64,000 nt of DNA, taken from the NCBI GenBank assembly GCA_029267635.1, contig JAJUIK010000001.1:1-64000 (forward strand). The letters are read 5' to 3'. A program made the translations under genes and the position numbers. Under the pieces are notes generated by a model that was not told the origin of the DNA, ran no database searches, and saw nothing but the letters and a program-made list of their open reading frames with translations. The DNA is from Moraxellaceae bacterium (GTDB taxonomy: Bacteria > Pseudomonadota > Gammaproteobacteria > Pseudomonadales > Moraxellaceae). The first letter of the stretch is position 1. The number at the start of each line of letters is the position of its first letter. Positions 33,416 to 53,004 of this stretch are shown here, one piece after another.

Positions 33416-33763
33416 TTAAGCTAGGGCACGATAGGCATTTTCATCAAAACCCAGCAGATAACCTTTTGGAGTTTGCAATACCGGGCGTTTGATCAGACTG
33501 GTGTGCGTACTTAAGGCTTCAATCAGTGCGGTTTCACTAGAGAGTGCGTGTTGCTGTTCCGCTTCTGAAAGTTTGCGCCAGGTGGTGCCTTTTTTATTTA
33601 AAATCTTATCTGCGCCGATCTCAGCGAGCCAGGTTTTCAGCGTTTCGATATCAATGCCTTGTTTTTTATAGTCATGAAATTCATAAGCCAGGCCTAACTC
33701 ATTCAGCAGATCAAAGGCTTTTTTCATGGAGTTACAATTTTTAATACCATAAATTTTCAGCAT
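33416..33763 (-). CDS. ArsC/Spx-family protein (YffB-like)
   Basis: The 115-residue thioredoxin-fold protein has the YffB pattern: YGIKNCNSMKKA at the N-terminus with a single redox cysteine (CNSM, not CxxC), KKGTTWRKL, and IKRPVL near the C-terminus. ArsC arsenate reductases, Spx and YffB share this fold. YffB acts on glutathione-related thiols in E. coli by inference; no arsenic genes are nearby, so arsenate reduction is doubtful. It lies upstream of a GGA-rich RNA gene on the same strand. Confidence 0.88.
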   Translation of the reverse strand: MLKIYGIKNCNSMKKAFDLLNELGLAYEFHDYKKQGIDIETLKTWLAEIGADKILNKKGTTWRKLSEAEQQHALSSETALIEALSTHTSLIKRPVLQTPKGYLLGFDENAYRALA

Positions 33764-33968: not shown

Positions 33969-34011
33969 TAAAATAGAGAAACCCGCATTTAATCATCCTG
34001 ATTATGCGGGT
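33969..34011 (-). terminator. Terminator of the GGA-rich RNA
   Basis: ACCCGCA and TGCGGGT arms, with inner TAATCA/TGATTA, form a long stem. On the minus strand it is followed by TTCTCTATTTTA, U-rich but interrupted, so termination should be good but not perfect. The hairpin loop itself carries a GGA motif. Confidence 0.6.
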
Positions 34012-34135
34012 CTCGTTACAACGTCCATTGTCACATCCTTACGAAATAAACTAAATCATTCAGTTTATTTCTTGCGTCCTACGGCGTCCTGTCCCTTTGC
34101 TGTCATCCTGACAATATCCCTGTGCCGTGGGTGCT
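33969..34135 (-). ncRNA. Candidate CsrB/RsmZ-type small RNA (CsrA-titrating)
   Basis: On the minus strand, about 160 nt contain eight GGA motifs. Several lie in loops of perfect hairpins: TGTCA-GGA-TGACA (34101-34113), ACAA-TGGACG-TTGT (34018-34031) and TAATCA-GGA-TGATTA (33990-34004). GAAATAAACT/AGTTTATTTC (34043-34052, 34062-34071) forms another stem. The 3' hairpin 33981-34011 ends in a U-rich tract. This is the design of CsrB/RsmX/Y/Z RNAs, which sequester the translational regulator CsrA. The 5' end is inferred at about 34131. Confidence 0.72.
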
Positions 34136-34172
34136 ATATTGCCAACAAAGACACTGAATAAAAATACACAAA

Positions 34173-34188
34173 TACGACAAAAATCGTA
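34173..34188 (-). promoter_or_regulatory. Palindrome in GacA-type upstream-activator position
   Basis: TACGA (34173-34177) and TCGTA (34184-34188) form a 5-base inverted repeat around six bases, centred about 50 bases before the inferred start of the GGA-rich RNA. GacA sites of pseudomonads have the same arms-N6-arms layout, though with a different sequence (TGTAAG...CTTACA). An activator site is an inference. Confidence 0.35.
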
Positions 34189-34229
34189 GGTAAAAAACCT
34201 CTATTAAGTGAACAAGTGTAAACTTATTT

Positions 34230-35048
34230 TTATAGCTGATAGTCAATAATCACCGGTGCATGGTCGCTAAACCATTGTTCTTTATATACCCAGGCATTGA
34301 CCGTGCGTGTTTTCCAATCTGGTGAGCAAGCCTGATAGTCAATCCGCCAGCCTACGTTCTTGGCACGGGCTTGACCGCGATTCGACCACCAGGAATACAG
34401 TTCTGCTTCCTTGCGGACTTCACGAAAAGTATCGACATAACCGAGTTCATCATAGATATGGTCTAGCCAGGCGCGTTCATGCGGCAGGCAACCGGAGGCT
34501 TTCTGGTTGCCCGACCAGTTTTTAATGTCGATGCGTTTATGTACGATGTTGTAGTCACCACAGACAATGATCGATTTATTCTCTTCACGCCACTGCTTCA
34601 AAATGACCTTGTATTGTTCCAGAAAATGATCTTTGCGGGCTTGTGCTTCTTCACCACTCGATCCGGATGGCAGATATAGCGAACAGATATAAACAGGTTG
34701 TTCGAGTCCTAAATCAAATTCGGCACTGATAAAACGTCCCTGACTGTCGGCCAGTTCAAAACCCAGACCATCTTGTACAGAAACAAAAGGCAGGCGACTA
34801 TAAATCGCGGTTCCAGCATAACCGGCACGTTCAGCCGGGAATAAATGCGTATACCAGCCTTCCGGTTTGAATTTATCGGTCCACTGCGCATGGGTAATGC
34901 GGCTTTCTTGCATGCAGACCACATCTGCATCCGATTGATCCAGCCATTCCAGCAAACCTTTGGTCACGGACGAACGTAAACCATTCACGTTAATTGAAAC
35001 TACTCGTAGAATTTTTACATCACTTGGATAGTGATCCTTTGCTATCAT
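34230..35048 (-). CDS. xthA: Exodeoxyribonuclease III
   Basis: The 272-residue Mg-dependent AP endonuclease/3' exonuclease has the EEP-fold signatures [22 protein letters not shown] and WRIDY, plus the catalytic SDHAP near the C-terminus. Exo III repairs abasic sites and blocked 3' ends. The ATG at 35048 follows GAGG at some distance. The gene is divergent from pyrE across 38 bases, so the pyrE promoter must overlap xthA coding DNA or the gap. Confidence 0.93.
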
Positions 35049-52202: not shown

Positions 52203-52428
52203 GAATTCTTTAAAATAGCGGCTACTTCATTGGGGAGTAGCCGCTATTTACGCAAAGTAAATAGGTGATGGTCAACATAATTGCGCCACAGCGCATGGTC
52301 ATCATAGCCAGAGAATCCCACCTTCCGTGATTCTTTTGTTGGCAAGACCTTTGATTTATCTTTCTGCTTGAAACATTTGGCTAGCGGGGAAGATAGGTCA
52401 TTGGGATTTCGCTAGCCAGAGAACCGAC
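52203..52428 (+). promoter_or_regulatory. yybP-ykoY-type manganese riboswitch in the leader of the exporter gene
   Basis: AATAGCGGCTAC (52214-52225) and GTAGCCGCTATT (52237-52248) form the P2 stem around TTCATTGGGGA, the conserved loop of yybP-ykoY aptamers (GGGGAGUAG, 52232-52240). The second conserved loop, GGCAAGACC, lies at 52341-52349. A second stem, GGCTAGCG (52379-52386)/CGCTAGCC (52410-52417), ends 12 bases before the start and could act as the expression switch. The gene behind encodes a TMEM165-type manganese exporter, as in known cases. Confidence 0.85.
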
Positions 52429-53004
52429 ATGCAAGAATTTTTAATTTCGACTGCGATTGTTGCGCTCGCAGAAATGGGTGATAAAACCCAGTTGCTCGCG
52501 CTATTACTTGCAGCCCGATTTCGTAAACCCGTACCTATTCTCATCGCAATCTTAGCGGCCACCTTGATTAACCATGGTCTGTCTGCGGTATTGGGGCAGT
52601 GGATTACCACGCTTCTGAGCCCAGAAATATTACTGTGGATTTTGTCGATTGGTTTTATTGCCATGGCCATCTGGATGCTGATCCCGGACCAGTTGGATGA
52701 TGAAACGGATAGTATTAATAAATGGCAAAAATACGGCGTATTTGGTGCTACCTTTATTCTATTCTTCCTGGCCGAAATTGGCGATAAAACCCAGATTGCT
52801 ACAGTTGCATTGGCTGCCCGCTTTGATAGTATTTTTTGGGTCATGCTGGGTACCACGCTGGGAATGATGATTGCCAATGCTCCAGCAGTCTTCATTGGTA
52901 ATAAACTGGCGGATAAACTGCCAATTTCACTCATTCACAAGATTGGCGCGGCAATTTTCTTGATCATTGGGATCAGTACACTGGTACAGCATTATTTCTT
53001 CTAG
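52429..53004 (+). CDS. TMEM165/GDT1-family (UPF0016) manganese exporter
   Basis: The 191-residue membrane protein is an internal duplication with two E-x-G-D-K-T motifs (ALAEMGDKTQL near residue 14 and FLAEIGDKTQI near residue 116), the hallmark of the UPF0016 family. These motifs line a Mn2+/Ca2+ transport site. Six or so membrane segments are visible. The manganese riboswitch in its leader supports a role in manganese export. It has its own terminator. Confidence 0.92.
   Translation: MQEFLISTAIVALAEMGDKTQLLALLLAARFRKPVPILIAILAATLINHGLSAVLGQWITTLLSPEILLWILSIGFIAMAIWMLIPDQLDDETDSINKWQKYGVFGATFILFFLAEIGDKTQIATVALAARFDSIFWVMLGTTLGMMIANAPAVFIGNKLADKLPISLIHKIGAAIFLIIGISTLVQHYFF

Follow-up and report, generated by a model that had tools for sequence, protein, structure and literature searches.

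The question raised by this locus is whether a short GGA-bearing interval on the minus strand, lying between an ArsC-like gene and xthA, encodes an RNA that sequesters CsrA and, if it does, which signal its promoter answers to. The locus lies in the window, by which we mean the whole 64,000-nucleotide stretch analysed here, taken from a 2.45 Mb genome that appears to group with Acinetobacter. RNAs of the CsrB type bind several CsrA dimers, each of which takes two GGAs, and thereby relieve the repression of target mRNAs. An RNA of this kind had been proposed here in an initial annotation, and its placement between the two genes is confirmed (Table 1). Our reading, to which we assign a probability of roughly 0.85, is that the interval is a conserved gene likely to make a noncoding RNA of about 153 nt that would titrate CsrA through eight GGAs, and that its promoter is predicted to be under a DesT/FabR-type regulator bound beside a degraded GacA site.

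Direct reading of the 153-nt element, which extends from a conserved ACGGC at 34128 to where the terminator-like hairpin ends at about 33976, bears out the eight GGA motifs originally counted, whose first bases on the minus strand are 34119, 34108, 34094, 34089, 34079, 34038, 34026 and 33998. Because at least eight GGAs are reached by 90 of 5000 base shuffles of the element, and because five regions of the 64-kb window (both strands, element included) hold at least eight per 153 nt, the count alone is weak evidence and it is conservation that decides. The element folds with a z-score of −4.71, and none of 200 dinucleotide shuffles folds as well. The proposed structure displays three GGAs in hairpin loops, two within the sequence CAGGAUG. 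The three perfect GGA hairpins of the initial annotation can all be drawn: 34101-34113 reads UGUC-AGGAU-GACA and 34018-34031 reads ACAA-UGGACG-UUGU, but 33990-34004, which contains AUC-AGGAU-GAU, is the tip of the terminator hairpin and not a hairpin in its own right. In the minimum-energy fold of exactly these 153 nt, other pairing replaces the hairpin at 34101-34113 and that at 34018-34031 is drawn differently; the former returns when a slightly longer piece is folded, and the consensus of 49 sequences has it too. The A/U stem described earlier forms 13 pairs in the minimum-energy fold, and the terminal hairpin is likewise upheld as a terminator-like structure in which 99.5% of cells are paired in the alignment of 49 sequences. 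The T-run that follows its stem is short (GGGTTTCT in the source genome, GGGTTTTC in 47 of 48 relatives). The hairpin is absent from the list returned by a simple terminator scan, and a simple scan found no sigma-70 consensus promoter at the element.

Table 1. Predicted features of the locus, in window coordinates
Feature	Position	Strand	Remarks
ArsC/Spx-like reductase gene	33416..33763	−	Downstream neighbour; TIGR01617, 95 bits (cut-off 75)
GGA-rich ncRNA gene	33976..34128	−	Predicted transcript of about 153 nt; predicted start near 34128
Terminator-like hairpin P5	33981..34011	−	Loop AGGAU with GGA no. 8; short T-run
Hairpin P4	34018..34033	−	Presents GGA no. 7 (ACAnUGGACGUU)
A/U-rich spacer hairpin P3	34043..34071	−	
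Helix P1	34081..34128	−	ACGGC (34124-34128) with GCCGU (34081-34085); closes the 5′ domain
Hairpin P2	34101..34113	−	Loop AGGAU with GGA no. 2
Predicted −10 element	34136..34141	−	CAATAT; genus consensus cATtAT
GacA half-site position	34185..34190	−	CTTACA in many relatives, CCTACG in the window
DesT/FabR-like palindrome	34207..34224	−	AGTTTACACTTGTTCACT; two mismatches to AGTGAACAnnTGTTCACT; at −96
xthA, exodeoxyribonuclease III	34230..35048	−	Upstream neighbour; TIGR00633, 225 bits (cut-off 99)

Comparison across relatives was based on an alignment (A1) of 49 distinct sequences out of 55, six identical rows having been dropped; one locus with an unusual spacing, L054, was omitted from a first alignment and is kept both in A1 and in the operator count described below. 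The GGAs are kept in these relatives as had been anticipated: seven are intact in all 49 sequences and the eighth in 48, and mean column identity is 99.9% in GGA columns versus 82% in the others. Helix P1 has 98.4% of its cells paired, with one pair changing from G-C to A-U in two of the 49, and is found both in the RNAalifold consensus and in the single-sequence minimum-energy fold. The outer pair of P2 varies between U-A, G-C and A-U in step, with both sides changed in 12 of 32 cells. The region of P3 diverges in sequence and length, yet it folds as a hairpin in every one of the 49 sequences, with 6-15 pairs. P4 has two invariant inner pairs and an outermost pair that is open in 12 of 49, the ACAA/UUGU pairing being possible in the source genome; it is not returned by the RNAalifold consensus. 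P5 varies mainly at one inner pair.

In a shuffling control that ignores relatedness, none of 500 shuffles reached the observed covariation score, and four of five pairing measures exceeded nearly all shuffles, the remaining one, the number of pair types, being reached by 168 of 500. RNAalifold independently returned P1, P2 and the terminator. Since its covariation term is small (−0.31) and pair types do not rise above the shuffles, most of the structure, as far as the alignment can speak to it, is backed by conservation and not by covariation. Two coding explanations fared poorly against the same alignment. The 78-codon open reading frame on the plus strand had been considered an accident of the stems, and this agrees with the finding that every antisense frame is stopped inside the RNA in 32 of 49 sequences. 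A small frame starting from CAGG-ATG inside the RNA was discarded, as its length shifts anywhere from 3 to 16 codons and its start is missing in 5 of 49.

The expectation that the same element would be found near xthA in related genomes was well founded. BLAST matched it in 54 of 58 other genomes of the genus; 36 genomes of other families gave no match. All 55 loci fetched, window included, have xthA on the upstream side of the element and the ArsC-like gene on its downstream side, on the same strand, with a spacing between these two genes that ranges from 351 to 1269 nt. When 84,980 species genomes were scanned for the terminator hairpin pattern, 114 stretches were recovered, all of them from Acinetobacter; both neighbours accompany 101 of these and one neighbour the other 13, which probably reflect the fixed 8-kb cuts, and the contrary order never occurs. 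The ArsC-like gene was detected in 110 of the 114, in the same order and on the same strand. Many of these loci come from close relatives, so that such counts are not independent events.

A covariance model (R1) built from the 49 distinct sequences scores the window element at 156 bits and, when searched in 299 genomes of the family, matches 131. These comprise 122 of at least 126 genus members, counting the source genome (121 score at least 142 bits and one is weak at 43 bits), together with nine genomes of three sister genera that hold 13 copies. Genus members listed as missed by the model are G109, G294, G336 and G341. Nine genomes were followed up, among them G030, which is 65% complete and has no xthA match; the other eight (G014, G109, G294, G336, G341, G031, G032 and G189) have xthA but give no model match in the roughly 1.5 kb flanking it on each side. 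Because eight genus members thus carry xthA without the adjoining RNA, the RNA is common in the genus but dispensable. One of them, G189, has a diverged copy elsewhere in the genome, behind a canonical GacA box. As a separate observation, G014, rated 100% complete, has xthA and a desT locus with palindromes of the type discussed below, yet lacks this RNA, and no BLAST match to any of three GGA-rich RNA types was found in it.

In the sister genera the RNA keeps different company. The fetched 1.5 kb flanking the homologues L184, L185, L187 and L192-L195 contained no xthA, and that flanking L184-L187 and L192-L195 no arsC-like gene. The sister genera also show multiplication of this RNA: L194 holds two tandem copies (G105:C1:2950188-2950344 and 2950768-2950925), each with a GacA-like box, and G101 carries four copies.

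How does the element compare with known CsrA-titrating RNAs? Like CsrB and CsrC of Enterobacteria (RF00018) and RsmX, RsmY and RsmZ of Pseudomonas (CL00106), it has many GGAs, some in CAGGAUG loops, and a terminator-like hairpin; csrA, gacS and gacA homologues are present in the source genome, and a GacA box precedes its homologues in sister genera. CsrA is encoded (NF002469, 117 bits against a cut-off of 73) and intact, sharing 51 of the first 57 residues with PDB 1y00. For the GacA homologue the score is 264 bits, just short of the 280 bits required for the UvrY/SirA/GacA family; for a hybrid kinase resembling GacS/BarA it is 572 bits, under a cut-off of 890. These are the best-matching families of the two proteins. 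Unlike the known RNAs, the element has no Rfam match at the gathering threshold. CsrB reaches only 10 bits against a gathering score of 71 (E 1.1), and a relaxed search up to E 10 gave three matches, CsrB and two unrelated names. It follows that the element is not covered by Rfam, as had been suspected in suggesting that sequence-based databases might lack it. Two further differences set it apart, namely that a complete GacA box is missing from 54 Acinetobacter loci and from the window, and that a DesT/FabR-like palindrome stands beside the GacA position in Acinetobacter. Overall, the CsrB/RsmZ reading is well supported by the conserved GGAs, the kept hairpins, the CsrA-, GacA- and GacS-like genes and the GacA boxes of sister genera; at the level of sequence and anatomy, membership in the CsrA-titrating class is well supported.

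The promoter region is where the Acinetobacter copies depart from their homologues. In the genus alignment the predicted −10 element is seen as a conserved GCAttAT some 7 nt ahead of the RNA start, and similar sequence is found in the sister genera. The GacA/UvrY consensus, quoted as TGTAAGNNNNNNCTTACA in an excerpt of PMC4682653, was searched as TGTAAGN6CTTACA with the variants TGTACG and CGTACA also allowed. Among the 13 sister-genus copies (L184-L195), the box has no mismatch in ten, one in one and two in two, and it lies at −74, or at −73 in the two copies with two mismatches. In Acinetobacter the full box is absent and a half-site remains at best, with 3-7 mismatches at −74 to −72 in 54 of 54 loci. 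Its right half, TTACA at −60/−61, is kept in 33 of 54 relatives and missing in 21, and this half-site position matches the place of the complete −74 box in sister genera. The GacA box marks how the RNA is regulated rather than the class to which it belongs.

Immediately upstream of this position is an 18-bp palindrome, AGTGAACAnnTGTTCACT, which was counted in 54 relatives with the window reported apart; the window itself has a weaker copy (Table 1). It is present with at most two mismatches in 50 of the 54, and all 51 relatives with at most three mismatches have it starting at −95 or −96. In a control piece taken from more upstream sequence, mostly xthA coding, none of the 54 has the palindrome at two mismatches or fewer, and the sister genera do not have it at −95/−96, where 5-8 mismatches are seen. 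The dyad is kept by paired changes in several loci (GTAAACA/TGTTTAC, GTTTACA/TGTAAAC, GTGTACA/TGTACAC). In the locus L054, xthA is about 1 kb away from the RNA, and it is the RNA that the palindrome accompanies. Two other identities for the palindrome were considered and set aside. It has the length of a GacA/UvrY site, also 18 bp, but the GacA boxes of sister genera lie elsewhere and the palindrome recurs at a desaturase operator; and its identity as the terminator of xthA was rejected in view of L054 and the fixed distance to the RNA.

Where else does the palindrome occur? At one mismatch or fewer there are 0-4 sites per genome in 11 genomes, against none for the reversed control, and the palindrome recurs, often in tandem, beside a TetR-type gene that is a desT homologue. 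Nine desT neighbourhoods were read; in seven, three of these from sister genera, the interval between the desT homologue and a ferredoxin-reductase-like gene contains sites with one or two mismatches. In A. nosocomialis a PF00487 desaturase gene (105 bits) directly follows the ferredoxin-reductase gene. The A. baumannii TetR protein matches DesT (PDB 3lsj, E 3e-28) and scores 141.6 bits with the NCBIfam FabR model, below its cut-off of 151. The source genome encodes a DesT homologue (G000:C26:20684-21307, 226 bits to that of A. baumannii). The desT loci of the source genome and of G049 have neither the palindrome nor a ferredoxin-reductase gene alongside, and in the source genome no palindrome with four or fewer mismatches lies beside desT. 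This speaks against the promoter part of our reading, as do the two mismatches of the window palindrome and the CCTACG at the half-site position.

The source genome has 15 sites with at most two mismatches to the 16-mer core of the palindrome, versus four for the reversed control. Of four inspected by eye (L058-L061), three lie inside reading frames and one, L061, with two mismatches to the core, precedes a PF00487 desaturase gene and is the best lipid-gene site of this genome; in A. baylyi a related site (L243) stands before the 85%-identical counterpart of that desaturase. The E. coli FabR motif given in an excerpt of PMC4273635 agrees with the palindrome at 13 of 16 defined positions. Because the palindrome marks desT and desaturase loci, resembles the FabR motif and stays with the RNA in L054, we read it as a putative operator of the DesT/FabR type that the RNA promoter gained in Acinetobacter. 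It has in common with the operators of DesT (P. aeruginosa) and FabR (E. coli) an 18-bp palindrome, and a candidate protein to bind it in the DesT homologue; unlike them, it precedes the gene for a GGA-rich RNA and not a lipid gene. A third recurring DesT-like palindrome, of the AGTGTACAAACGTTCACT type, was noticed in L253 and L245, around position 1501 and downstream of a histidine kinase/response-regulator frame; in L253 it precedes a 253-aa frame without any Pfam match.

One claim of the initial annotation has to be given up, namely that this would be the CsrA-antagonist RNA of the organism. The source genome has canonical GacA boxes at eight positions (reversed control, one), and besides the window element there are at least three further GGA-rich RNA candidates, so the element is one of several likely CsrA antagonists. 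A second type (G000:C32:265221-265370, plus strand) has eight GGAs and a terminator loop with GCAGGACGC, lies behind a canonical GacA box and has relatives at L226, L197 and L205; a search of 37 genus members matched it in 30, with two of the matches spanning only 35-36 nt. An RsmX-like type (CAGGAACAGGA..., terminator loop ACAGGAUGU) gives six matches in the source genome, some of them partial. Two are near full length (C32:333975-334123 and C32:94966-95119), another is at C22:235074-235177, and relatives are found at L224, L227, L231 and L233. This type is present in 35 of 37 genus members, with as many as 12 matches per genome elsewhere and some copies in tandem and behind GacA boxes; the Rfam RsmY model matches two copies weakly, at 23 and 22 bits against a gathering score of 57. 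At another GacA-box site, L203, seven GGAs lie on one strand and there is no clear terminator.

Other elements came into view along the way. GacA boxes also stand before a conserved element with few GGAs in L211 (minus strand) and L218 (minus strand, box at 1475), both of the source genome; the same element, with a near-identical terminator hairpin (TAAGCCTT..AGTTTTGGGAGAGACTA..), is found at L223, L225 and L228. Elsewhere in the window, a manganese (yybP-ykoY) riboswitch at 52215-52382 on the plus strand (60.4 bits, gathering 45) lies upstream of a 191-aa protein (52429-53004) with EMGDKT and EIGDKT motifs. We take these motifs to be typical of manganese exporters of the UPF0016 type, presumably the family of this protein.

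From these pieces a mechanism can be outlined. The RNA would be transcribed from near 34128, and since each CsrA dimer takes two GGAs, a single RNA with eight of them could hold up to about four dimers and so free target mRNAs. With less certainty, a DesT-type protein may occupy −95 to −78, right next to the GacA position at −74 to −57, from where it would gate the RNA by lipid unsaturation, and other GGA-rich RNAs that have intact GacA boxes may keep the ordinary Gac input. An evolutionary scenario can be added in which a sponge RNA was re-plugged in the ancestor of Acinetobacter, its GacA box decaying and a DesT/FabR operator arising right beside it, such that membrane-lipid unsaturation (the acyl-CoA state) would now set the level of free CsrA and several other sponges would stay with Gac; we consider this scenario an even bet.

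The strongest competitor leaves the nature of the RNA as it is and disputes only its control: an ordinary RsmZ-type RNA under GacA alone, for which the CTTACA half-site, with a TGtCG block behind it, would suffice and next to which the palindrome would be unrelated, for example part of the end of the xthA transcript. A GacA homologue is indeed encoded, and the half-site, where kept, sits where sister genera have their box. Set against this, all 54 loci have lost the left half of the box and 21 of them TTACA as well, the distance of the palindrome is fixed to the RNA and not to xthA, as L054 shows, and the same rare palindromic 18-mer marks a desaturase operator; control by GacA alone is thus a tentative alternative that we think doubtful.

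The remaining alternatives dispute the class itself. That the element directly follows xthA on the same strand could point to a processed 3′ end of the xthA mRNA or to a base-pairing sRNA of the Hfq type, with the GGAs serving as seed or structural parts, and A. baumannii is said in an excerpt of PMC12802169 to make more than 100 sRNAs within an Hfq-centred RNA-RNA network. This is improbable given the conserved promoter-like elements between xthA and the RNA, the homologues of other genera that have no xthA within the fetched 1.5 kb, and a conservation concentrated on the GGAs, which is the pattern of CsrA binding. Slightly more improbable still is a cis-acting leader or attenuator of the ArsC-like gene, for which the constant strand and order of that gene would speak; the variable spacing, the sister-genus copies with no arsC-like gene in their fetched 1.5 kb and the terminator-like hairpin in which the element ends all argue otherwise. 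Finally, a functionless chance cluster or repeat would fit a GGA count that is only mildly unusual, but with GGAs that hardly vary within the genus, and with homologues present in three other genera, it is close to negligible. The CsrA-titrating RNA with a predicted DesT/FabR-type operator is the reading we prefer.

This is not the first proposal of such an RNA in the genus. Work by Kulkarni in 2006 reportedly predicted a CsrA-regulating RNA in Acinetobacter baylyi ADP1, and this prediction may concern the very locus described here; A. baylyi DSM 14961 carries it (L074). The predicted sRNAs of ADP1 share with the window element both genus and proposed function. An excerpt of PMC5568370 notes that RsmA-regulating sRNAs had earlier been predicted in ADP1 and adds two loci in its Table 2, and a CsrB-like RNA is drawn for A. 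baylyi, with the 2006 work cited, in part of PMC12442408. The two ADP1 loci added in 2017 have the gene orientations -><-<- and <--><- in that excerpt of PMC5568370, unlike the window locus, where the RNA and its two neighbours share one orientation; that excerpt offers no promoter analysis for Acinetobacter. In the non-subscription literature searched, A. baumannii RNA-interaction papers included, we found no experimental study of a CsrA-antagonist RNA in Acinetobacter.

The Csr circuit matters to these bacteria: csrA is described in part of PMC12802169 as essential for growth of A. baumannii on rich medium, and its truncation, according to an excerpt of PMC12442408, alters competence and growth in A. 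baylyi. A genus-wide model is now available for one CsrA-antagonist RNA candidate, along with at least three more candidates in the same genome. Lipid state is suggested as a new and testable input into the Csr circuit and, if this is true, the re-plugged sponge would tie membrane fluidity directly to that circuit.
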